From positions 288,097 through 352,096 of the forward strand of contig JANXDO010000001.1 in NCBI GenBank assembly GCA_025059375.1: a DNA stretch of 64,000 nucleotides, given 5' to 3'. This DNA is from Candidatus Nezhaarchaeota archaeon (GTDB lineage Archaea; Thermoproteota; Methanomethylicia; Nezhaarchaeales; WYZ-LMO8). The translations under genes and the position numbers were made by a program. A model generated the notes under the pieces. That model had not been told where the DNA came from. It ran no database searches and saw nothing but the letters and a program-made list of their open reading frames with translations. Below, in pieces: positions 1,065 to 49,798 of the stretch; the first letter of the stretch is position 1; each line of letters starts with the position of its first letter.

Positions 1065-1072
1065 TTTATAAG
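1065..1072 (+). promoter_or_regulatory. TATA box for the marker 5/15 gene
   Basis: TTTATAAG lies 33-40 bases upstream of the proposed TTG start at 1105. Transcription would begin near 1093-1097, giving a very short leader that just includes the GAGGT ribosome-binding sequence. Confidence 0.5.
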
Positions 1073-1104
1073 CAGTAACATTGACTACCTGTGAGGTACC
1101 TGTC

Positions 1105-2847
1105 TTGAAGGTGTTAGTGTTCCCATTCAATAGTTTAATACTGAGCGACTTAGTCCTTAGGAGGGGGCATGAACCACTTACCTCAATGAAGTGCATTGAG
1201 GAGAGGGTTAAGGACGGGCTCAAAAAGCCACCATTCAATATATTCGACGAAGACCTAGTCAAAGCGCTTAAATTCGCTCCAGCCGACATGCCCGCTGGCG
1301 CCAAAGGTAGGATATCGCTCTTAGCCCCATTAATACATGAAGCTGAAGCGGCCTTAGTAATGGAGGGCGCTGAAGCATGTTTCGGCCCCTCTGGCTGCTT
1401 AAGAGCAAACATGGCGCTTCTCAGTCTTCTCAAGAGCAGGGGCATCCCCATACTTAAGGTTGGGGAGCCTAGGAGCATTGACGAGGCCAAGAACCTTCTT
1501 GAGCAGGTGGATAAATTCTTGGGTAAGCCTATCTACCCCACATCAACGTCAACGATTAGCAAGGCTGGCAAATCTCAAACAATGATAGTGAGGATCTATC
1601 CGGCACCCAAAGTTCCAACATATCCTTCAATCCCACTTAGGATTGCAATTATAAGTTGTGGACTTGAATACTCTGGCGTCTTTAGCGAGGTTGTTGAAGC
1701 GATAAGAAGTGTTGGAGCTGAACCCTACATACCTGAGTACTCTAAAGAGTACGTTAAGCAAGTGGAGAGAGTCTTTGGAGTTAAGCCTGTGAGCGGTGAT
1801 TTAAGGGTCCTACTTGCACAAGCACTGTCACTCCTCGACATGAGAATGGGTGTAAAGGGAGCCCTGCTCATGACGTGCTTTAGGTGTGGTGAGGGGAGCC
1901 TCATCAGGAGCATGGCGAGGTCACTCATTGTTGAGAGGCTCAAAATACCAGTCGTAGCCTACTCATTCACTGAAAGGACAAGAGACTACAACCTGCGCCT
2001 TAGGATTGAAGCACTGTACAACTTGATATCGAAGAAGAGCCTCTACAAGAAGCCACCAGGAGGATTAGCTCTAGGCTTAGACTCCGGCTCAACCTACACT
2101 AAGGCTGTGGTTTATGATGGCAAGGAGATTTTGGGATACTCTTGGAGGCCAACTATAGATATTGAGAGGGATGCCGAGAAAGCTACTAAAGAGGCCTTAG
2201 ATAAGGCTGGCATCTCTATAAGCCAGCTTGATGCTATCGGAGCTACTGGATATGGTAGGTTCAGGATAAGCAAGCTGCATCAAAAATCATTTGTAGTCGA
2301 CGACGTCAACTCTAGTGCTCTAGGAGCACTGCTTCTATCAGGTTTCAACAGGTGTCTAATACTAGATGTAGGTGGGACTGATACTAAGGCTATGTCCATA
2401 AGGGACATGAACCCAACAGGCTTCAGCCTAGGCGAGATATGTGCCGGTGCTTCGGGAAGATTCCTAGAGATTGTTGCCTCAAGACTTGGGGTAAGCATTA
2501 AGGAGCTCGGTGAAATGGCTCTTGAGAGACTAGAAACTAAAGTGACATTAAATGCTTATTGTGCTGTATTCGGCCTTCAAGACGTCGTTGCCTTACTGGC
2601 TAAAGGTGTCGACAAGCGAGATATTGCAGCCGCAGCGTGCAAGAGCATTGCTGAGCAAATATGCCAACAGTTTTTAGGGGACGTCGACGTGGTTGATCCG
2701 ATCATCCATGTGGGCGGGGCATCGCTGGTTAAGGGGCTGACAGAAGCTCTTAAAGTATCTACAGGCCTACACATCGTCGTACCGAGGTACTCACAGTTTG
2801 CTGGTGCAATTGGCGCTGCAGCTATGGCTCTAAATGCAGGGGGATGA
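1105..2847 (+). CDS. Fused methanogenesis marker 5 / marker 15 protein (BadF/HgdC-type ATPase)
   Basis: The 580-residue protein has two parts. Residues 1 to about 140 (starting KVLVFPFNSLILSDL) resemble methanogenesis marker protein 5. After a Thr/Ser-rich linker, residues from about 175 resemble marker 15: a SCGLEYSG start, a TCFRCGEGSL motif and a VAYSFTER motif, then an ASKHA ATPase domain (GLDSGST loop) like activators of 2-hydroxyacyl-CoA dehydratases. Cys446 in CAGASGRF and Cys486 in NAYCAVF match the two cysteines that bridge a [4Fe-4S] cluster in HgdC. I chose TTG 1105 because GAGGT stands 7 bases upstream and homologues begin there; the frame is open from 1081. It overlaps the next gene by ATGA. 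In methanogens the two markers are, as I recall, separate neighbouring genes. Its biochemical role is not established; a link to MCR modification or activation is inferred. Confidence 0.75.
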   Translation: MKVLVFPFNSLILSDLVLRRGHEPLTSMKCIEERVKDGLKKPPFNIFDEDLVKALKFAPADMPAGAKGRISLLAPLIHEAEAALVMEGAEACFGPSGCLRANMALLSLLKSRGIPILKVGEPRSIDEAKNLLEQVDKFLGKPIYPTSTSTISKAGKSQTMIVRIYPAPKVPTYPSIPLRIAIISCGLEYSGVFSEVVEAIRSVGAEPYIPEYSKEYVKQVERVFGVKPVSGDLRVLLAQALSLLDMRMGVKGALLMTCFRCGEGSLIRSMARSLIVERLKIPVVAYSFTERTRDYNLRLRIEALYNLISKKSLYKKPPGGLALGLDSGSTYTKAVVYDGKEILGYSWRPTIDIERDAEKATKEALDKAGISISQLDAIGATGYGRFRISKLHQKSFVVDDVNSSALGALLLSGFNRCLILDVGGTDTKAMSIRDMNPTGFSLGEICAGASGRFLEIVASRLGVSIKELGEMALERLETKVTLNAYCAVFGLQDVVALLAKGVDKRDIAAAACKSIAEQICQQFLGDVDVVDPIIHVGGASLVKGLTEALKVSTGLHIVVPRYSQFAGAIGAAAMALNAGG

Positions 2848-3362
2848 GCATGGCCGGCATACTGATAGTACTCCTACCAAGCTCTAAATTGACTCCATCA
2901 GCGCTTGCTGAGAGGATTACATGGCTCGGACTGCCAGTGAAGGTAAAACCCTACGGTTTCGGCGTCGCCGTTGAAGGGGCTAACGAAGACCTCAGGAGGA
3001 TTGCAGAGCTCGCGTGGAGCTTGGACCCTCAGCACGTGTTCATTAAGCCAAGAGGCTTTCCAATAGCTGATGAGAGATTCCTAGGCCATAGCTATCGCGG
3101 GCTGGGCTCGATTAGGAGGAAAGGCTTACTACAGATAGACTATGAGATGGAATTAGCTGAGAACCTTGCTGAGGCTATGGGTGGCAAGCCATCTAGACTA
3201 AACACCAAGATAGTTGAGTGTAAGCACGTTAGGGAGTACGTGAGCGCCCTCATCGTAGAGGATAATGGCAAGAAACTTGTCTACTGTCCAGAGAAGAGGT
3301 ATATGGGTGAGCATGCCTGTTCTGGTAGATGTCCATACGGGGAAGTTGTGGTCTGGGCTTGA
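2844..3362 (+). CDS. Methanogenesis marker protein 6 homologue
   Basis: The N-terminal 120 residues fit marker protein 6: an Ile/Val-rich start, a central segment with LDPQHVFIKPRGFPIAD, and a basic glycine-rich stretch before a helix. About 45 extra residues follow, containing four cysteines (Cys132, CPEKR, HACSGRC). I recall the family as about 130 residues, so this tail appears to be an addition. The start ATG overlaps the upstream stop (ATGA); a second ATG at 2850 sits better behind the GGGGG run. Translational coupling to the fused marker 5/15 gene suggests a shared role in an MCR-linked process. Function is not known for the family. Confidence 0.7.
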   Translation: MSMAGILIVLLPSSKLTPSALAERITWLGLPVKVKPYGFGVAVEGANEDLRRIAELAWSLDPQHVFIKPRGFPIADERFLGHSYRGLGSIRRKGLLQIDYEMELAENLAEAMGGKPSRLNTKIVECKHVREYVSALIVEDNGKKLVYCPEKRYMGEHACSGRCPYGEVVVWA

Positions 3363-7412: not shown

Positions 7413-8552
7413 TCATTGGATTGTACCGCTAGTCAATAGCTTCAACTTAATCTCGCTCTTCTTGGGATGGAATATGTAGTCCAATGAGGTGCCGGAAGCC
7501 TCTGGTATTCTCATCCACTCTATGAGCTTCTTGAAAACTCCTCCAGCCAGTCCATCAGCCACCATTGCATATCCCTGAGCTGCCTCCTTAACGGTCTTAG
7601 CCCCCTTAAGCCAGCCCACTTGTCTAACCTCACCATATCTACTGAGCCTCTCTTTAACCATCCTCTCTATCTCATTAATCCTCGTCAACCTACCGGACAG
7701 CAGGATCTCTCTTGGCTTTCTCACTGATACCATCATTGATGCAACCATCTTCTCTATACCTTCAACCATCGCCTCCATCATAGCCCTACACACCTCATCC
7801 CATTTAGCCCTTTCAACCAACTGCTCTGGTAACTGAACTTTAGCCACTGTTGAGATTCCACCAGTAAAGATGTCGCTCTTCTCCCAATTACCCACGAGCT
7901 GTACAAGCTCGGCATCCAAGCCTCCGGCCGTTAGGAAGCCCATGTGGCCCATGGTTCCACCTATACCATCAACTATCCTACCCCCCTCAACACCTATGAC
8001 AGCATTGTAACCAAAACCCATCTCAACGAGTATGAACGACACCTCACTGTAATTCAATCCTAACCTTCTTGACTGGTCATAGACTCCCAAGACGGCTATG
8101 CACATCTTGTCCGCTGTCCCCATGTCTATCTTATTTATCTTCCTATACCATGGAACTGTGGGCAGATGAACTACAGCTGGTATGAAACAGATAGGCATGT
8201 TTCTTCTCTTCATCTCGATGGTCGCCTTGACCATTGCTTGATAAACCATTATCCCGAGGTCCCCTCTTTTAAGGGCTTTCTCGACATCCTCTGGTCTAAC
8301 GAGGAGAAGGTCGTTGAGAGCAAAGGCCTCCGGATCCTTTACATCCTTTAGGTGCGTGATCTTAACCCCATAGCCCGATGGGCCTGTTATCAAATCGACT
8401 TTGCCAGCTTCCTCCAAGCCCTCAATTAAGGATTCAGGCCTTTTGGCTATTTCTGGTGTTGGGATGACCTTCTCATAGAAGACCTCTCCATTCTCTAGGC
8501 CGCATATATCGAAGCTAAAAGTTCCAGGATCGACCCCCAAAACCTTGACCAT
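7413..8552 (-). CDS. DUF1464 family ASKHA-type kinase-like protein
   Basis: The 379-residue product opens with GVDPGTFSFDI, a phosphate-1 loop of the acetate/sugar kinase-Hsp70-actin fold, and shows a second nucleotide-binding segment with ILLSGRLTRI. The order of blocks matches archaeal DUF1464 proteins, which are predicted to be related to butyrate kinases but have no proven activity. The neighbouring PH-like membrane gene is probably co-transcribed. Substrate unknown. Confidence 0.75.
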   Translation of the reverse strand: MVKVLGVDPGTFSFDICGLENGEVFYEKVIPTPEIAKRPESLIEGLEEAGKVDLITGPSGYGVKITHLKDVKDPEAFALNDLLLVRPEDVEKALKRGDLGIMVYQAMVKATIEMKRRNMPICFIPAVVHLPTVPWYRKINKIDMGTADKMCIAVLGVYDQSRRLGLNYSEVSFILVEMGFGYNAVIGVEGGRIVDGIGGTMGHMGFLTAGGLDAELVQLVGNWEKSDIFTGGISTVAKVQLPEQLVERAKWDEVCRAMMEAMVEGIEKMVASMMVSVRKPREILLSGRLTRINEIERMVKERLSRYGEVRQVGWLKGAKTVKEAAQGYAMVADGLAGGVFKKLIEWMRIPEASGTSLDYIFHPKKSEIKLKLLTSGTIQ

Positions 8553-16885: not shown

Positions 16886-17821
16886 TCAGCTTAAAGCTAA
16901 GTTTAGCGTGAAGCTAGCTAATGCCTTCTTGGCCTCTAAGCTCTTCATGATTGTATCAGTCACTCCAACCTTTATATTCATTTGTTCAATTTGAGGAGCA
17001 TACTCAGCATCAACTCTATCTATGACCATACACTTTATGAGACCCTTGTACACATCAGCAACACCTTTTGGCGATACCTCGTAGCCCAAGGCAGCCATTA
17101 GCTTGTCTGCGGGCCCCTTAATAGTTCTCCCCCCAACTATCGGGCTTACAGCTACAACTCTCTCAGCTCTAGCCACGACGTCCATAACTCCTGGCAGTGA
17201 TAGTATTGGCCTTATGCTTACAATGGGGTTACTGGGTGGAATTATGATCACGTCAGCTTCCTTCAACGCCTCAATGACTCCGGGAGCAGGTTTAGCCCCC
17301 TCAATACCTTTAAAGCCAACCCCCTCAACAATACCTTGGCAAGCCATTTTAACCATGTAATCTTGGAAGTGAACCCACCTACCATCAACCTTAACTATGG
17401 TGGTTACTCCGTCATCCGTCATGGGTATGACCCTGCATTCTACACCAAACACTCTGCATTCAATATCTGTTATTTGGCTTAGCTTCAAGCCCCGCCTTAA
17501 CATCATGGTCCTAAATATGTGGGTAGCTAAATCCATGTCTCCTAGCTTAAACCAGGTCTCTAGACCGAACCTCTCCATAGCTTTAAGACAATTAAAGGTA
17601 TCACCCTTTACCCCCCATCCCCTCTCCTCATCTACAATTCCAGCTAAGTGGTATATCACGATGTCGATGTCTGGCGATATCATAAGACCGTTTATCTCAA
17701 TATCATCGCCAGTATTCACTATTGCTGTAACGTCAGATGGGGGGACCACTTGAACTAAGCCTTGGAGGAATCTAGCGGCTCCAACTCCGCCACATAGGCA
17801 AGCAACCTTCATCTCCACCAT
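16886..17821 (-). CDS. cofD: 2-phospho-L-lactate transferase (CofD)
   Basis: CofD transfers a phospholactyl-type group to the deazaflavin Fo to form F420-0. The N-terminus (KVACLCGGVGAARFLQGL), the Asp-containing IVNTGDDIEINGLMISPDID block, the GWGVKGDTFNCL segment and the GPADKLMAALGYEVSP block are diagnostic. Length is normal at 311 residues. Start at 17821 or at the following ATG at 17812. The presence of cofD implies F420, the hydride carrier of methanogens and many other archaea, in agreement with mptG and the marker genes. Confidence 0.92.
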   Translation of the reverse strand: MVEMKVACLCGGVGAARFLQGLVQVVPPSDVTAIVNTGDDIEINGLMISPDIDIVIYHLAGIVDEERGWGVKGDTFNCLKAMERFGLETWFKLGDMDLATHIFRTMMLRRGLKLSQITDIECRVFGVECRVIPMTDDGVTTIVKVDGRWVHFQDYMVKMACQGIVEGVGFKGIEGAKPAPGVIEALKEADVIIIPPSNPIVSIRPILSLPGVMDVVARAERVVAVSPIVGGRTIKGPADKLMAALGYEVSPKGVADVYKGLIKCMVIDRVDAEYAPQIEQMNIKVGVTDTIMKSLEAKKALASFTLNLALS

Positions 17822-17996
17822 ACCCTAAGCGTGGTACACCTCATTCCGTTCCCAAGTCTCAAGCTTAAGCCCTCTAATAAATGTTGAGGCTCACTTTTGC
17901 CCTCATCACGCCCATCTACGTCTGCAGTGTAAAGAAGTCAACTTCTATGATGAAACTTCTGTAACTGAGAGTAGTAAAGCTCGCTCAACACTTAAT

Positions 17997-18007
17997 TTTA
18001 TCTATAT
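17997..18007 (+). promoter_or_regulatory. TATA region for the alcohol dehydrogenase gene
   Basis: TTTTATCTATA lies 25-35 bases upstream of the ATG at 18032, so transcription would begin at or just before the start codon. Confidence 0.5.
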
Positions 18008-18031
18008 CTAACCCCTAAGAACTTGTGACCG

Positions 18032-19249
18032 ATGGAGTGTGAAAGCTTGGCCTCACCTCATGAGTTTAGAGGCTTTTCATTAAGGCTTCCATCAAAGGTG
18101 ATAGTCAACATGGGTTCAATTGAGTTGCTAGGTCATGTTGCACGAAACTTTGGCAGGAGATGCCTTGTAGTAGCAGGTAGACAAACCACTGAGAGTGGTA
18201 GGCTAAAGGTGGTTGAGGAAAGATTGATTGATGTAGGCGTGGACTATGATGTATATGATGCCTTTCCACCTGAACCAACGTTTAGTCATGCAGAGGAGTT
18301 AGCTGAGTACGTCGACAACATTATGAAGTCCAAGGGGTTTGCATTCGTTGTGGGCTTTGGAGGTGGAAGCAGCCTAGACATGGCTAAGGTCGCATCTTTA
18401 GCGTCAGTCAATCCGAGACCCATTGAACAGTACATTGGTGTTGAGAGAGTTCCAAGAAAAGGCTTACCTCTAATACTTATACCAACAACTGCTGGTAGTG
18501 GAAGTGAAGTTTCGAGATCAATAGTCCTCGTAAAGGAGCAGGAGGAGATTAAGGAAAGTATTGTAAGTGGGAACTTAGTGGCCGACGTCGCCATAGTAGA
18601 TCCCAAGTTGACCATCACCATGAACCCAAAACTTACAGCTATAACGGGGATCGACGCTCTCTCTCATGCTATAGAATCCTACATGTCGCTTAAAGCCAAC
18701 ACCTTTACTGATCCACTTGCTCTAGAAGCTATCAGCCTCATATCAGCGAACTTAAGGAGGGCTTACAGTAATGGAGATGACCTTGAAGCTAGGAGGGCAA
18801 TGAGCGAGGCAGCACTCTTAGCTGGGCTAGCCTTCAGTAATGCTAGCAACTGTGCGGGTCATGCAGCCGCCTACTCATTTGCTGTTAGGTACAACATACC
18901 TCATGGAGCAGCATGCGGCGTAGCCCTCCCCTACATCATGAGGTTCAATATGCTTGCAATACCTGAAAGGCTCGCGGACATAGCTGTGGCAATGGGGGTA
19001 AGTGGTGAATTAAGCATAAGAGAGTTAGCTCAGCTAGCTGTAAGCGAGGTTTTGGACTTATTGACTGACCTGAACATGCCTACATCACTCGAGGAGTTAG
19101 GGGTTCCGCAGAAAGACATCGTTGAATTAGCCGATAAAATGATGAAGATGACTAGGTTATTAGAGGCCAATCCAAGAAAAGTAAGTTTCAATGACGCAAG
19201 GAAGATTTTAGAGTCCATGTGGCATGGAGATGTTGAATCAAAAATATAG
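18032..19249 (+). CDS. Iron-containing (group III) alcohol dehydrogenase
   Basis: The protein has the NAD(P)-binding FGGGSSLDMAK loop, the PTTAGSGSEVS signature, and the DALSHAIESYMS motif with metal-ligand histidines, followed by NIPHGAACGVALPY. These identify an iron-dependent alcohol dehydrogenase of about 405 residues that oxidises alcohols or reduces aldehydes. The substrate cannot be set from sequence. The gene stands alone with a leaderless-type promoter. It is convergent with the DUF2258-like gene. Confidence 0.87.
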   Translation: MECESLASPHEFRGFSLRLPSKVIVNMGSIELLGHVARNFGRRCLVVAGRQTTESGRLKVVEERLIDVGVDYDVYDAFPPEPTFSHAEELAEYVDNIMKSKGFAFVVGFGGGSSLDMAKVASLASVNPRPIEQYIGVERVPRKGLPLILIPTTAGSGSEVSRSIVLVKEQEEIKESIVSGNLVADVAIVDPKLTITMNPKLTAITGIDALSHAIESYMSLKANTFTDPLALEAISLISANLRRAYSNGDDLEARRAMSEAALLAGLAFSNASNCAGHAAAYSFAVRYNIPHGAACGVALPYIMRFNMLAIPERLADIAVAMGVSGELSIRELAQLAVSEVLDLLTDLNMPTSLEELGVPQKDIVELADKMMKMTRLLEANPRKVSFNDARKILESMWHGDVESKI

Positions 19250-19253
19250 TGGT

Positions 19254-19275
19254 TGGAGGGGGACTTACTCCTCCA
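19254..19275. terminator. Hairpin at converging gene ends
   Basis: TGGAGG (19254-19259) pairs with CCTCCA (19270-19275) across a 10-nt loop. It begins 5 bases after the alcohol dehydrogenase stop and covers the stop of the gene on the other strand. A shared 3' end is possible but unproven. Confidence 0.3.
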
Positions 19276-19969
19276 TTAATGGTCTCTCCTCTCTAAGCTC
19301 GCTCTTTATGAGAGACTCTATATCCCTAAACCCTTTTTCAGCTTCAAAAGTCTCAACGTGCCGAGCAGCCCTAACTAGATCCTGAAGGCTGCTTGAAAGG
19401 GCCTCATCAACAGCTCTTCCTTGTAAGAGGACTTTACCCTTATCAATTATTATTGGTGTTGGCTCTAAGATTGCCCCACGAACTGCTGCAAGCTCCTCAT
19501 TTATGACTGTGGCCACAAGAGCCCCAACAACTTTAGCTTCTATCTTAACTCTATAGACATGATCTCCATAAACTGTTGTTGCAGCCTTCTCGATTTCGTA
19601 AGCTATGACCCTTTCAAGAATTTTACTTATCTCAGGTACAACTTCTTTTACAACTTTTGAGACTGTTTCGTCAGGTACCCTCTTGAATAACTCTAAGTGT
19701 AAAGTGTCGTATCTCCACACAACTTTACCGTTCTCGACGTCATACCCTATCCTAGCTCTAACAACGTCACCCTTATCAGACTTTAACCTCTCAACGATGA
19801 TGTGATACAAAGCTCTGTTAAGTTCAGCTGAAGCCCTAGCAACTTCCTGGGCTGAAACTTCCCCTCTCTTTACATGCTCTCTAAGTTGAGCAAAAAGTGT
19901 CTTCCTGACCTTGTCTGCATAGGCACCAGCTATTATTAATCCAGTGTTAAGTTGCGCCATAATTTTCAC
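19265..19969 (-). CDS. DUF2258-like archaeal protein
   Basis: The 234-residue protein starts with an invariant-looking TGLIIAGAYADKVRKTLFAQL, then helices, then a beta segment with two lines of repeated alternation (KVVWRYDTLHLELFKR, and IEAKVVGALVATV). I recall this N-terminal pattern from the crenarchaeal family DUF2258, but I could not check it. No catalytic motif, cysteine pair or membrane helix is visible. The start at ATG 19969 or the following ATG at 19957 is close to TATTTTACTATA upstream. Confidence 0.6.
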   Translation of the reverse strand: MKIMAQLNTGLIIAGAYADKVRKTLFAQLREHVKRGEVSAQEVARASAELNRALYHIIVERLKSDKGDVVRARIGYDVENGKVVWRYDTLHLELFKRVPDETVSKVVKEVVPEISKILERVIAYEIEKAATTVYGDHVYRVKIEAKVVGALVATVINEELAAVRGAILEPTPIIIDKGKVLLQGRAVDEALSSSLQDLVRAARHVETFEAEKGFRDIESLIKSELREERPLMEE

Positions 19970-31205: not shown

Positions 31206-31347
31206 TGCTGCAGTGCTATCACTTAATATAGTTGTAGTGGGCAATTAACCACATTATTAAAGCGGCAGCTCAACATTAGTGTAGACTTGAGGAAAATTAT
31301 TAAGCCACTATAGCAATTCATGTACGTCATAATTGTGGTGCAAGCAC

Positions 31348-32193
31348 ATGAATCAATCTGAGGAGAAGGAGGAGGCTAAGAGGACTATTGAAGAGGATGC
31401 AAAGTTCAAGGAGACACTCTCAAAGATAAAGTACAAGGTGATGGTGATAAGTGGCAAGGGGGGTGTTGGAAAGAGCTTTGTTACAGCAAATCTAGCAATG
31501 GCCTTCGCCCTCAAGGGCTACGCCATCGGGGTGCTGGATGCTGACGTACATGGTCCATCGATACCCAGAATGCTTGGCTTAAAGGGGGAAGTTCCAACTG
31601 TCAGTCCTCTCGGGGTCTTTCCAGTTATAGGGCCGCTCAACATCAAGGTGATGTCTATGGACTTCTTAATTCCCAGCGACGAAATCCCAGTAGCGTGGAG
31701 AAGCCCATTAAAAGTGAGCATCCTAAGACAATTCATATCTGACGTCATCTGGGGTGATTTAGATATCCTGTTCATAGACTTGCCACCAGGAACTGGAGAT
31801 GAAGTGATATCAATAGCTCAGCTCTTACAACCCGATTTCGCACTCGTAATTACGATCCCCTCTGAGGTCTCAAAAGCTGTGGTTAAGAAGGTAATCACAT
31901 TCACAAGGACAGTTAACGTCCCAATACTGGGGATCGTAGAGAATATGAGCTACTTCGTCTGCCCTAACTGCAAATCAAAATATGATCTCTTCGGATCTGG
32001 TGGTGGTAAAAAGTTAGCAGAGGAGATGAGGGTCCCATTCTTAGGAGCCATCCCAATAGACCCCTCAATAAGTGAGGCTTGCGATAAAGGTCTCCCCTAC
32101 ATAGCTAAGTATCTTGATAATGAGACTTCTAAGCTATTCTTCGACATAGTTAGTAAGTTTGAAGAGGAGTTAAATAAGAGATCCCAAAAGTAG
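31348..32193 (+). CDS. Mrp/NBP35-type iron-sulphur cluster carrier ATPase
   Basis: The deviant Walker A motif GKGGVGKSFV and the switch segments (VLDADVHGPSIP, LFIDLPPGTGDE) identify a ParA-related Mrp ATPase. CPNC in YFVCPNCKSKYD is the C-x-x-C pair that holds a bridging [4Fe-4S] cluster. It would deliver clusters to target proteins. ATG 31348 is preferred because GGTG stands 6 bases before it. Archaea with many iron-sulphur enzymes commonly have several copies. The intergenic region that follows is long. Confidence 0.88.
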   Translation: MNQSEEKEEAKRTIEEDAKFKETLSKIKYKVMVISGKGGVGKSFVTANLAMAFALKGYAIGVLDADVHGPSIPRMLGLKGEVPTVSPLGVFPVIGPLNIKVMSMDFLIPSDEIPVAWRSPLKVSILRQFISDVIWGDLDILFIDLPPGTGDEVISIAQLLQPDFALVITIPSEVSKAVVKKVITFTRTVNVPILGIVENMSYFVCPNCKSKYDLFGSGGGKKLAEEMRVPFLGAIPIDPSISEACDKGLPYIAKYLDNETSKLFFDIVSKFEEELNKRSQK

Positions 32194-38164: not shown

Positions 38165-39766
38165 TTATTGACCCTCGTTCCCCCTACTCCGCCTCTCCCT
38201 GATACTCTTAAACATTATTGCCTTGTTTATCGCGTCTACAAAAGCAGTCACAGAAGCTATCACTATATCTTTATCGACAGCCTTTGCCTTAAATATAGAG
38301 CCTCCAGGATCTCTTATTGCTATCTCAACACTCGCTAAGCTATCGGTCCCTCCAGTCACGGCTTCAAGCCTAAACTCACTTAAGGTATAGTGACCTATAA
38401 CCCCTAATGCCTTCTCTATGGCCTTAGCTGAAGCATCAACCGGTCCAACACCAATGGCAGCAGCCCTAATCTCGTTGTCAAAGACTTTTAAAAGGACGGA
38501 CGCTGTGGGGGTAATTGTGTTTCCAGTGACTACGACAAGCTCCTTCAAAGTAACTGCTCTCTTACTCTCTGGTATTCCCCCGATTACTGCTTCAGCAATG
38601 GCATAGACGTCCTCCTCCATGACGGCCTTTTTCTGCTCACCAAGCTTCCTAACTTCTTCAGCTATTCTTGCTAAGTGTTCTTCCGTCGCTTGAATTCCGT
38701 ACTGTTCTAGCAGAGCCTTTATGCCATGCCGCCCGCTATGCTTACCGAAGACTATCCTTCTCACCTGACCCACGTACTCTGGCGCGAAGGGCTCGTATGT
38801 TATGGGCTCCTCCAATACCCCGTGGACGTGTATTCCTGATCTATGTGCAAAAGCATTTCTACCAACTATCGGGTAGTTTGGTGGATTGTAGATTAAGCTA
38901 TACTTCTCTATGAGCCTGCTCACCTCTGTTAAGTACTCTTTCTTAATTCTAGTCTTCACGCCATAGAGCGCTTCGAGACCCACGACAACCACCTCTAGTG
39001 CTGCATGCCCTGCTCTCTCACCTAAACCATTGACTGTAACGTGGACTTGACTTGCACCGGCAACAACGGAGGCCAAGGCGTTGGCGTTGGCCATACCTAA
39101 GTCGTTGTGACAGTGAACCGATATCGGGACGTTAATGTGCTCTCTAAGAGTCTCTATTAAGTATTTCATTGCATCGGGTGACATGACCCCAACGGTGTCT
39201 GGCACGTTTATCCTATCGACCCCCGCATTAACAGCATTCTTATAGACTTTAATTAAGAACTCAAGATTGGTTCTTGTAGCATCCTCACATGAAAATTCGC
39301 AGACAACGCCATGATCCTTTATGTACTCAACAGTCTCGACGACTCTCTCTATGACCTGTTCAGGCGTCATTTTAAGTTTGTACTTAAGGTGCCACTCGGA
39401 GGTCCCTATGAATGTGTGCACCGCACTCACATCGGCCTTTAAGCAGCAGTCCACGTCGGACTTTAATGTCCTCGCTAGAGCACATATTTCTGCTCTAAGT
39501 CCTAAGCCGGCTATGCTCTTAACAGCCTTAAACTCCTCTTCAGAACTTGACGGGAAACCAGCTTCTATAGTGTCTACGCCAAGCTTATCCAACTGTCTCG
39601 CTATCTCTAGTTTCTCGTCAATCTTGAAGACGACGCCGGGCGTTTGCTCACCCTCTCTAAGCGTTGTGTCAAATATCCTGACATCAACGATCTTGAACCT
39701 TGATGCCACTCTCCTAACGTACTCACTCACGAATGGTATTTTATCGATTGACACATCCTCCACCAA
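38165..39766 (-). CDS. 2-isopropylmalate synthase or (R)-citramalate synthase
   Basis: The HMGL-like TIM barrel is shown by DTTLREGEQTPGVVF and SVHCHNDLGMANANAL with the metal-binding histidines. TFIGTSEWHLKYKLKMTPE and HRSGIHVHGVL follow, and after about residue 390 the C-terminal LeuA allosteric domain ends the protein. LeuA condenses acetyl-CoA with 2-oxoisovalerate (leucine), CimA with pyruvate (isoleucine). The two cannot be separated here. The 533-residue length fits both. It shares an operon with the RAM-domain synthase upstream. Confidence 0.8.
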   Translation of the reverse strand: MVEDVSIDKIPFVSEYVRRVASRFKIVDVRIFDTTLREGEQTPGVVFKIDEKLEIARQLDKLGVDTIEAGFPSSSEEEFKAVKSIAGLGLRAEICALARTLKSDVDCCLKADVSAVHTFIGTSEWHLKYKLKMTPEQVIERVVETVEYIKDHGVVCEFSCEDATRTNLEFLIKVYKNAVNAGVDRINVPDTVGVMSPDAMKYLIETLREHINVPISVHCHNDLGMANANALASVVAGASQVHVTVNGLGERAGHAALEVVVVGLEALYGVKTRIKKEYLTEVSRLIEKYSLIYNPPNYPIVGRNAFAHRSGIHVHGVLEEPITYEPFAPEYVGQVRRIVFGKHSGRHGIKALLEQYGIQATEEHLARIAEEVRKLGEQKKAVMEEDVYAIAEAVIGGIPESKRAVTLKELVVVTGNTITPTASVLLKVFDNEIRAAAIGVGPVDASAKAIEKALGVIGHYTLSEFRLEAVTGGTDSLASVEIAIRDPGGSIFKAKAVDKDIVIASVTAFVDAINKAIMFKSIRERRSRGNEGQ

Positions 39767-39817
39767 CTCACTTTAACCTTCTTCCACTTAAACAGTTAAG
39801 CTAACCTTAAGAGTTTA

Positions 39818-41215
39818 TTACCTCTTCTGCTGTATTGACCTCAAGGACTTTAAGATGAAGTGAGTCTGTGTACCACTCACCCCTCTTATCATCCTTATTT
39901 TCTCTAAGCATTCATTTAACTCAGTTATTGACGGAGCTGAAACCCTGACCTGAATATCGAAATCCCCGCTTATCTCGTGAACCTCCATGACTTCTTTTAT
40001 TGACGCCAACCTCCTAGCAATGGACGTTGTATAGACATTAGGTTCGCACTTCACTAGTATTGTTGCTTCGATATTTGAAGGAACCTCGGGAGTCAACTTT
40101 ACCCCTGTAACCTTCTCTACGATCTCTATGAGATCTACATCTCTATAAGTTCTTACGTCACTCCTACCCTTAATGACGTTAACTACCTTCTCTACGTCCT
40201 CTTCACTAAGCTGTATACCAAGCTCATTAAGCTTAGCTTTAACCGCATGCTTACCTGAGTATTTACTTACAATTATCTCTCTCCTCCTACCAACAAGATC
40301 CGGTGGGAAGGCCTCATAAGTTGAAGGGTCATAGAGCACTGCTGCTATGTGAACACCACCTTTGTGAGAGAATGCATTCTCTCCAACTACAGGTGCATGT
40401 GGTGAGACAACAATACCACTTAACCTCTCAACTAGTGCTGATAGCCAGGTCAACTTATCAAGCTTGAGGACCTCTATTCCATAGAGAACCTTCAAGGCCA
40501 CGGCGATGACTTCAAGGCTCGTAATTCCAGCTCTCTCTCCAATACCATTGACTGTAACGTGAACTCCAGTGGCCCCTCCCTCTAGTGCAGATAAGGCATT
40601 AGCTACAGCCATGCCCAAATCGTTATGACAGTGACAATCGAATTCAACCCCAGGCACGTCCCTCGTAACCCGCTCGAATAACTCTCTTATCCTCCACGGA
40701 GTCATGATGCCGACCGTATCTGGTAAACTTATTCTATCAACTCCAGCGCGAACAGCCTCCCTACATATTCTAGTCAAGAAATCGTATCGAGCCCTAGTAC
40801 CATCCTCTGCTGTAAATCGTACCTTAACTCCATGGCTCTTAGCATACTCTACAACCTTAACAACCCTCTCTACAGCCTCATCTTCACTAATCCTCATCGA
40901 CTTTAGCTTCGCCTCTGTGACGCCGAGAAATATCGCCACCATATCGACATCACACGATATGGCCCGCTCAACATCCCCCACATTCGCTCTACAGTGAGCA
41001 ATGACATCAGCCGATAGTCCCTCCCTAGCTATTAGCTTAACAGCTCGATATACATCCTCAGACACATTGGGATCCCCAGCCTCTATCATCTGAACGCCTA
41101 CGCTATCTAGAGCCCTCGCTATCTCTAGCTTCTCCTCAACCGTAAAGTTAACACCAGGCGTTTGTTCACCCTCTCTAAGCGTTGTATCGACTAGTAAAAC
41201 CTTCGTTATTGGCAT
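39818..41215 (-). CDS. Homocitrate synthase-like enzyme with C-terminal RAM domain
   Basis: A TIM barrel starts VDTTLREGEQTPGVNF and contains EFDCHCHNDLGMAVANALSA, the HMGL-like signature. GGVHIAAVLYDP takes the place of the GIHVHG motif of LeuA, as in homocitrate synthases. The C-terminal 85 residues (NIEATILVKCEPNVYTTSIA... and GDFDIQVRVSAPSI) form an Lrp-type RAM domain, known from archaeal homocitrate synthases. I start at ATG 41215, behind a TATA box; the frame is open to 41320, but that extra 35-residue hydrophobic stretch lies in the promoter. It may serve lysine synthesis (AAA pathway) or coenzyme B chain elongation. Confidence 0.78.
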   Translation of the reverse strand: MPITKVLLVDTTLREGEQTPGVNFTVEEKLEIARALDSVGVQMIEAGDPNVSEDVYRAVKLIAREGLSADVIAHCRANVGDVERAISCDVDMVAIFLGVTEAKLKSMRISEDEAVERVVKVVEYAKSHGVKVRFTAEDGTRARYDFLTRICREAVRAGVDRISLPDTVGIMTPWRIRELFERVTRDVPGVEFDCHCHNDLGMAVANALSALEGGATGVHVTVNGIGERAGITSLEVIAVALKVLYGIEVLKLDKLTWLSALVERLSGIVVSPHAPVVGENAFSHKGGVHIAAVLYDPSTYEAFPPDLVGRRREIIVSKYSGKHAVKAKLNELGIQLSEEDVEKVVNVIKGRSDVRTYRDVDLIEIVEKVTGVKLTPEVPSNIEATILVKCEPNVYTTSIARRLASIKEVMEVHEISGDFDIQVRVSAPSITELNECLEKIRMIRGVSGTQTHFILKSLRSIQQKR

Positions 41216-41242
41216 ATGTATCTGAAGTAGAAAAGTGAACAA

Positions 41243-41251
41243 TAATTTAAA
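41243..41251 (-). promoter_or_regulatory. TATA box for the homocitrate synthase-like gene
   Basis: On the minus strand TTTAAATTA is centred 32 bases before the proposed ATG at 41215, giving a leader of only a few bases. It also argues against the upstream start at 41320. Confidence 0.5.
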
Positions 41252-41364
41252 TTTTTCGGAAAGATTAATACGATAATAAAACCATAAAAATACGTTTCCC
41301 GCACCATCCCTAACCTTCATAGATTGATTTTCTGTAAAGAATGATGCTTCATGGAGGGGTGAGT

Positions 41365-48484: not shown

Positions 48485-49798
48485 TTAAATCTTCAGCTTT
48501 TCGATGAGTTTATAGGCTGGCGAGCCATCAAAGCAGTACTTAACCTCCTGGTAGTCTTGCATGAACTTTACAACCTCTTTCCTCACCTCTGACGGGTCCC
48601 TCCTCCTCAAAAGTACATCTTCAATCTTCTCAGCTATGAAGTTCATCTCGCTCTTTCCCATCCCTAGCCTAGTAACCTCTTGAACACCAAGCCTCAAACC
48701 ACTTGGATTGTTAACTCTCTTAGGGTCATCCCATGGGAGCAAGTTCATGTTGGTTATTATGTTTGCCTCTTCAAGCATCTTGGATGCTCGCTTACCCCCA
48801 CCTAGCTCCGTAACGTCAATCACTATCTGATGCGAGGATGTGAAGCCCTTATGTGGACACAGAACCCTGAACCCTCTGTCGTACAGTGACCTTGCTAACT
48901 CTCTAGAGTTTTCTACCGTTGCCTTAGCATAGGCAGCCCCATACTCGATCATCTCCGTTAGTGACACGGCTAAAGCAGCTACTCTATGCAGATGGTGGTT
49001 ACTAATTAAGCCCGGGAAGAGGGCTCTTTCTATCCTCTCCATGGCCTCCTCATTGTTTGATAGCACTATACCTCCCTGAGGGCCTGGAAACGTCTTGTGT
49101 GTGCTACCCATGAGTACTAGCGCGCCTTCGGCTAAGGGGTCTTGAAACTCTCCTCCAGCTATTAGCCCCAAGACATGGGAGCCATCGTAAACCACATGAC
49201 CTCCAAACTTCGCGACCTCTTTGCTAAGTTCCCTCACTGGATGGGGGAATAGGAAGAGGCTTGCTCCTAGGACTACTAGCTTAGGCTTAACCTTAGCTAT
49301 AACGTCTACTGCCCTATTAACATCTACGTTCATCTCGTTGACATCAAATGGCAAGTCGACAACTGAAAGCCCTATAATGCCAGCAGCCCCTATTTCTGCG
49401 AAGCTTATGTGACCTCCACAAGGTATGCTCAATCCCACGATGGTATCTCCAGCCCTCGTTAAAGCTGAGAACACAGCTAAGTTGGATATGGTCCCTGAGA
49501 TGGGCTTCACGGAAGCAAACCTACACTTGAAAAGTGTCTTAGCTAACTCTATGGCTATGACCTCAACTTCATCTATGTAGCGAGTTCCACAGTAGTACCT
49601 CTTATACGGTTTTCCCTCAGCGTACCTATGGCCGAAATCCGACATTAAGACAAGCCTGACATACTTGCTGGTAACATTCTCGCTAGGGATGAGATTTAAG
49701 CATGACGACCTCCACGAGTCATGAGCCTTAGTGAGCTCAAGCACCTTAGACAGAAACTCAAAGCTACTCATTGACTGTTCAACTGATAACAATACCAA
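48485..49798 (-). CDS. glyA: Serine hydroxymethyltransferase
   Basis: The PLP lysine lies in VLMGSTHKTFPGPQGG, and LIPSENVTSKYVRLV begins the fold. The cofactor site and folate-type site residues are conserved across the GlyA family. It interconverts serine and glycine and passes a C1 unit to tetrahydromethanopterin or tetrahydrofolate; mptG in the window favours the former. The 437-residue length is normal. It is convergent with the histidine operon. The N-terminal nine residues may precede the true start. Confidence 0.92.
   Translation of the reverse strand: MVLLSVEQSMSSFEFLSKVLELTKAHDSWRSSCLNLIPSENVTSKYVRLVLMSDFGHRYAEGKPYKRYYCGTRYIDEVEVIAIELAKTLFKCRFASVKPISGTISNLAVFSALTRAGDTIVGLSIPCGGHISFAEIGAAGIIGLSVVDLPFDVNEMNVDVNRAVDVIAKVKPKLVVLGASLFLFPHPVRELSKEVAKFGGHVVYDGSHVLGLIAGGEFQDPLAEGALVLMGSTHKTFPGPQGGIVLSNNEEAMERIERALFPGLISNHHLHRVAALAVSLTEMIEYGAAYAKATVENSRELARSLYDRGFRVLCPHKGFTSSHQIVIDVTELGGGKRASKMLEEANIITNMNLLPWDDPKRVNNPSGLRLGVQEVTRLGMGKSEMNFIAEKIEDVLLRRRDPSEVRKEVVKFMQDYQEVKYCFDGSPAYKLIEKLKI

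Follow-up and report, generated by a model that had tools for sequence, protein, structure and literature searches.

No function has been assigned to methanogenesis markers 5, 6 and 15, conserved though they are across methane-metabolising archaea, and which physiological electron donor serves MCR activation is unsettled (PMC12176620). In a 64,000-nucleotide stretch of a Candidatus Nezhaarchaeota genome (hereafter the window), markers 5 and 15 are joined in one gene and followed at once by marker 6, which raises the question of whether this gene is the organism's own form of the two markers and what such a chain might do. Nezhaarchaeota are predicted CO2-reducing methanogens (PMC9635834). The locus comprises the following features:

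1065..1072, + strand: putative TATA-like box TTTATAAG, 5′ of the fused gene, as read directly from the sequence
1093..1097, + strand: Shine-Dalgarno-like GAGGT, 7 nt before the TTG start of the fused gene
1105..2847, + strand: fused marker 5-marker 15 gene, 580 aa, an open frame with HMM matches and with fused homologues in genomes G001 and G004
1105..1530, + strand: marker-5 (DUF2112) domain, residues 1-142, with C92-x5-C98 in place of the canonical CxxC
1525..1632, + strand: linker, residues about 141-176, stop-free, with residues 147-174 under 50 pLDDT
1633..2064, + strand: marker-15 N-terminal domain, residues 177-320, with C185 and the CxxC C258/C261, resembling the HGD-D C-terminal domain (HgdB/DCCP family)
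2065..2844, + strand: ASKHA activase domain, residues 321-580, with C446 (codon 2440-2442) and C486 (codon 2560-2562) matching HgdC C127 and C166
2844..3362, + strand: divergent marker 6 (DUF2102), 172 aa, its start inside the fused gene's stop (ATGA), translationally coupled
3219..3332, + strand: part of the marker-6 C-terminal extension holding the four cysteines C126, C148, C159 and C163

The frame of the fused gene, read from its TTG start, contains no internal stop codon, the linker, predicted to be disordered, included. TIGR03271 (marker 5) matched residues 2-139 of the product (133 bits, E 8e-39) and TIGR03286 (marker 15) residues 179-575 (423.7 bits, E 7e-127; profile positions 2-401 of 404), and Pfam placed DUF2112 at 1-140 and BcrAD_BadFG at 323-575. 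The claim of the initial annotation that a single 580-residue protein has a marker-5 N-terminal and a marker-15 C-terminal part was thus confirmed, residues 1-140 being DUF2112 and not an unrelated family, and the overlap with marker 6 by ATGA was likewise found as described, with the start at 2844 inside the stop. An assembly slip does not account for the fusion, since two further genomes encode fused homologues that are 63 and 68% identical to this one. The match to TIGR03271 is full length (133-137 bits) yet below the curated NCBIfam cut-off of 140.25, and the TIGR03286 score lies below its cut-off of 455.75, where the canonical copy of the same genome reaches 614.9; against Pfam DUF2112 the protein scored 136, above the cut-off of 25. 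In the same way, the partner marker 6 reached 70 bits with TIGR03272, below the curated cut-off of 125.95, and 59 with Pfam DUF2102, above the cut-off of 25. All three NCBIfam scores of the module are therefore under the curated cut-offs, whereas the canonical copies of the same genome exceed them, and from its sequence the marker-5 part reads as a divergent relative.

The genome from which the window was taken (G000; 1.47 Mb in a 14-contig draft, 96% complete, 1.98% estimated contamination) also encodes a separate canonical marker 5 (C3:323042-323467, 226 bits) and marker 15 (C3:323488-324696, 615 bits), the two frames overlapping by ATGA, as well as a canonical marker 6 (139 bits). The initial annotation had overlooked this set and had treated the fused gene as the form that markers 5 and 15 take in this organism, a view that we abandon. 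Canonical 5, 6 and 15 share a cluster with McrC, Mmp3, Mmp17, McrA, a McrD-like protein, Mmp7, A2 and a second A2-like ABC protein, and the mcrA gene (C3:317868-319514), which lies on another contig than the fused gene, bears out the earlier prediction that the genome is MCR-type. Of mcrA, Mmp3 and Mmp7 the genome has one copy each; 5, 6 and 15 are the only families, among those counted, that occur twice. The window thus carries a further, divergent copy of the 6-5-15 module, with 5 and 15 fused. Given that the canonical 5 and 15 genes coexist with it, the fused gene is a divergent paralogue with altered cysteines and not the organism's own markers 5 and 15, and it need not serve MCR. The canonical mcr cluster also contains two A2-like double ABC proteins (L037:11530-13227 and 17726-19318; C3:308000-327999), one of them above the A2 cut-off (714 bits) and the other well below it (306 bits).

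The fused protein was present in three of the six genomes of the same family, each from a different genus (G000, G001 at 68% identity and G004 at 63%), and was absent from the remaining 34 genomes of the class and from all others in a 398-genome phylum sample. Canonical copies accompany the fused gene in each carrier, marker 15 of G001 being in pieces at contig ends, and in all three marker 6 overlaps the fused gene, the two forming a stand-alone pair. The fused gene is absent from G003, which belongs to the same genus as G004 and is 93% complete, so that the module may be dispensable. Its gene neighbours largely differ among the three carriers. In the window, a serine recombinase gene (148-897, − strand; Resolvase N-terminal domain and a CxxC-type C-terminal tail) lies upstream of and divergent from the fused gene and could have brought the module here, and a DUF1464 protein is encoded nearby (7413-8552, − strand). 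Orthologues of two further window genes, one for a NUBPL/ApbC-type Fe-S carrier NTPase (31333-32193, + strand) and the other at 48485-49798 (− strand), stand directly beside the fused module in G004 (L040:7321-9667); in the window they are 28 kb and 45 kb from the module, and this may be chance. The window also contains two adjoining 2-isopropylmalate/homocitrate synthase-family genes (38165-41320, − strand) that are 42% identical, one of which scores above the LysS-type homocitrate synthase cut-off.

Fused and split forms were compared by phylogeny, as the initial annotation had suggested. The marker-15 tree grouped the three fused copies in one clade (100/100), whose branch is long at 1.5 changes per column, apart from the Nezhaarchaeal canonical marker 15, and a forced grouping of the two was rejected (p-AU 0.011). 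The same constrained tree speaks against a recent duplication of the organism's own marker 15, but the trees of marker 5 (p-AU 0.09) and marker 6 (p-AU 0.28) do not discriminate, and the long branch applies here too. When an activase outgroup was added, the fused clade was placed beside the f6 family (records named Methanomethylicota) and G028; the marker 5 and marker 6 trees recovered the clade but not its position. Because long-branch effects are possible, the clade may stem either from an ancient duplication or from gene transfer out of a related lineage. The fused marker-15 parts share 62-71% amino-acid identity, as compared with 79-94% for canonical marker 15, and among the fused copies codon position 2 is the least changed and position 3 the most, the signature of purifying selection on the fused copy.

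These observations bear on two rival explanations of the locus. That the gene is an artefact, part of a contaminant contig or in decay would fit a 14-contig draft with some estimated contamination and the location of the two sets on different contigs; however, two further genomes of the family, one a named public record, carry fused orthologues, the tetranucleotide make-up of the two contigs is similar (r 0.93) and the codon-position pattern runs against decay, so that we consider this explanation very improbable. Simple replacement of the usual markers 5 and 15 by the fused gene has the HMM matches to both families in its favour, but separate 5 and 15 are found in all three carriers (in G001 with marker 15 in pieces) and the fused copy scores under the family cut-offs, and we give it even less credence.

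Elsewhere the two markers are encoded separately and mostly side by side. Among 80 named marker-15 loci, the best 80 of 157 confirmed in a collection of 84,980 species genomes, one was fused, and this was G001's own record. In the other 79 of these best 80 of 157 loci, marker 5 directly adjoins marker 15 in 68, with overlap or contact in 56, and marker 6 lies within 600 nt upstream in 54. Apparent fusions in ANME-1, Methanobrevibacter and others, seen as one continuous match, were set aside because each has a stop codon in the linker, and in L109 and L112 the apparent long frames that include marker 6 arose by chance or masking and are not fusions. Among the genomes and loci examined, no stop-to-stop frame matching both families was found outside the three Nezhaarchaeal genomes, although other fusions may exist, since the searches beyond the class used peptide patterns and the phylum sample. 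In one Methanobacteriaceae MAG (L054:6888-7948) a tandem duplicate of marker 5 lies upstream of marker 15, its first copy being very divergent. The published gene order in Methanohalophilus mahii is marker 7-17-15-5-6-3-AtwA (PMC3226654), and marker 5, with a CxxC, has been described in a conserved operon with marker 6 (PMC9425974). The initial annotation had argued from the fusion that markers 5 and 15 act together; the idea is supported, but the fusion is not needed for it, as the adjacency in 68/79 other loci and the published order (PMC3226654) already imply as much. No report of the fusion or of a duplicated module was found in the open-access literature searched, nor were any biochemical data on marker 5, 6 or 15.

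Which parts of the machinery were kept was assessed from the cysteines. The marker-15 cysteines C185, C258/C261 (codons 1876-1878 and 1885-1887), C446, C486 and C512 are all present in 26/26 canonical rows and in 3/3 fused copies. In alignment with HgdC, C446 and C486 fall on its [4Fe-4S] ligands C127 and C166, and thus both cysteines that the initial annotation had expected in the ASKHA part are in place; the ATPase motifs are intact as well. The modelled C-terminal domain superposes on HgdC (1hux) with a TM of 0.91, an rmsd of 1.9 Å and 29% identity, and the fold together with both cluster cysteines assigns it to the HgdC-type ASKHA activases, with the dimer and the cluster themselves predicted. 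In the marker-5 part, the canonical FGCxGC reads CFGPSGC in 3/3 fused copies, the first Cys of the CxxC being gone and a new Cys lying three residues earlier, so that CxxC has become CxxxxxC. The structure-model alignment was imperfect, in that it placed marker-5 rows partly on the marker-15 N-domain; for this reason the residue counts that it gave for the C-terminal half of marker 5 were disregarded and a separate alignment was used. In the partner marker 6, both cysteines that are invariant in canonical marker 6 (18/18 rows) are replaced, and C126, C148, C159 and C163, which canonical marker 6 lacks, are kept in 3/3 module copies. A structure search with marker 6 returned generic ferredoxin-like matches only. 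The engine has been kept and the partner cysteines remodelled, and we infer that these cysteines bind clusters.

The domains upstream of the activase were compared with HGD-D (PF06050), the family to which the subunits of 2-hydroxyacyl-CoA dehydratase, of benzoyl-CoA reductase and of the double-cubane cluster protein (DCCP) belong. With hhalign, marker 5 and the marker-15 N-domain scored 31.3 against each other, as compared with 22.3 for the best of 60 column shuffles and 16.8 for the marker-6 control, and in the model, on an imperfect underlying alignment, they have a similar strand and helix order with the cysteine motif in the same place. Against the HGD-D C-terminal domain, marker 5 scored 35.6 and the marker-15 N-domain 39.0 (best of 40 shuffles, 24.0 and 25.8), with 13.0 for the marker-6 control. 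The canonical marker-15 N-domain matched PF06050 at the C-terminal end (E 0.017, 15.1 bits against 28.4), and marker 5 matched DCCP weakly (E 0.5-0.9). The likeness is remote, at 13-17% identity and 42-67% hhalign probability over small alignments, and neither domain is an HGD-D member in the sense of a three-domain subunit over the family cut-off, as only the C-terminal domain was matched. The comparisons suggest a kinship of both domains, marker 5 and the N-domain of marker 15, with the cluster-binding C-terminal domain of the dehydratases, of which they would be reduced relatives, and the fused chain may accordingly be read as dehydratase subunit, dehydratase subunit and activator.

In dehydratase-type systems, two ASKHA subunits dimerise with one [4Fe-4S] cluster and spend ATP to push an electron into the clusters of a two-subunit partner (compare PMC11971306). 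The fused protein has the dehydratase-dehydratase-activase order of HgdA/HgdB/HgdC, BzdNOPQ and DCCP with its reductase, and its upstream domains resemble the HGD-D C-terminal domain; it differs from them in showing one of three dehydratase domains per half, in having no recognised CoA substrate domain and in carrying all its parts on one chain. A complete operon of this type, with two HGD-D subunits and an activase, is encoded in G000 itself, a predicted methanogen (C3:224023-226980), and was found in G003 and G004 too. HGD-D proteins were considered as a dedicated partner of the fused protein and set aside, as they showed no correlation with the fusion. Compared with canonical markers 5, 6 and 15 (TIGR03271/DUF2112, TIGR03272/DUF2102 and TIGR03286; often a 6-5-15 operon), the module has the same families, the same 5-then-15 order and the same marker-15 cysteines, but 5 and 15 are joined, 6 lies downstream instead of upstream, the scores fall under the cut-offs, the marker-5 CxxC is changed, the marker-6 cysteines are replaced and the whole is a second copy outside the mcr cluster.

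Our leading reading, to which we give about even chances, is that of a second, divergent 6-5-15 module with 5 and 15 fused, working as a dehydratase-like electron pump with a different redox partner. The fused protein itself is, on its sequence features, most likely an ATP-driven low-potential electron donor whose redox partner has changed. Electron donation is suggested because marker 5, the marker-15 N-domain and the activase repeat the dehydratase layout in miniature, in the same order as at C3:224023-226980, and a different partner because the activase is kept and the partner cysteines are altered. The ASKHA domains would dimerise around one [4Fe-4S] cluster, and ATP binding and hydrolysis would send a very-low-potential electron into the cluster site of the two dehydratase-like domains, which would hand it onward; marker 6, with its new four-cysteine tail, would likely be the subunit for electron input or docking. 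The canonical module probably serves the reductive activation of MCR or the assembly of the activation complex, and MCR activation is its likeliest use because it sits in the mcr cluster. The purified activation complex consists of McrC, Mmp3, Mmp7, Mmp17 and A2, with markers 5, 6 and 15 not among its components (PMC12176620), so that MCR as the target is deduced from the clustering: canonical 5, 6 and 15 share a cluster here with all the genes of that complex, and the fused copy lies elsewhere. The fused module may do a similar job with another redox partner, most likely for the same single MCR and less likely for another enzyme; with one mcrA, the same MCR under other conditions or another enzyme would both be possible. 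Of the electron-donating unit for MCR that the initial annotation had proposed, the electron donation accords with the intact activase motifs and cysteines, but service to MCR does not follow, as the fused gene is a paralogue and 5, 6 and 15 are outside the purified complex (PMC12176620).

Two further explanations were weighed against this electron pump with a changed partner. The fused module might have been retargeted to activate a non-MCR enzyme (nickel, corrinoid or Fe-S radical) in these Nezhaarchaeota; the changed marker-5 and marker-6 cysteines, the long branch, the site outside the mcr cluster and the absence of a second mcrA would agree with this, but no candidate target is linked to the module, its neighbours differ in the three genomes, and the HGD-D pair that would be the obvious candidate comes with an activase of its own and is also present in the fusion-free G003. 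We consider retargeting unlikely, though worth keeping in mind. We are somewhat more doubtful of a module that serves as chaperone or scaffold for Fe-S clusters (for example, those of McrC, Mmp7 or Mmp17) or F430 and spends ATP on conformational work instead of electron transfer: clustering with the activation-complex genes (PMC3226654) and CxxC motifs that could carry a cluster in transit speak for it, whereas all copies keep both [4Fe-4S] ligands of the electron-transferring activases and the domain order is that of dehydratase-dehydratase-activase operons such as C3:224023-226980. A bolder combined proposal, that markers 5 and 15 are a shrunken dehydratase-activator pump constituting the missing ATP-driven low-potential donor across MCR archaea and that the fused copy has been retargeted to a second low-potential enzyme, we hold with similar doubt.

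The clustering of 5, 6 and 15 was already known (PMC3226654, PMC9425974); what is new here is a fused, divergent second 6-5-15 module in Nezhaarchaeota. That 5 and 15 occur on one chain and are doubled together with 6 while mcrA, Mmp3 and Mmp7 are single sets 5-6-15 apart as a separable unit. One soluble protein whose activase is intact is easier than a multi-gene complex to express and to assay for ATP-driven electron transfer, and the proposed kinship with the dehydratase pumps would turn the label 'function unknown' into specific, testable chemistry.
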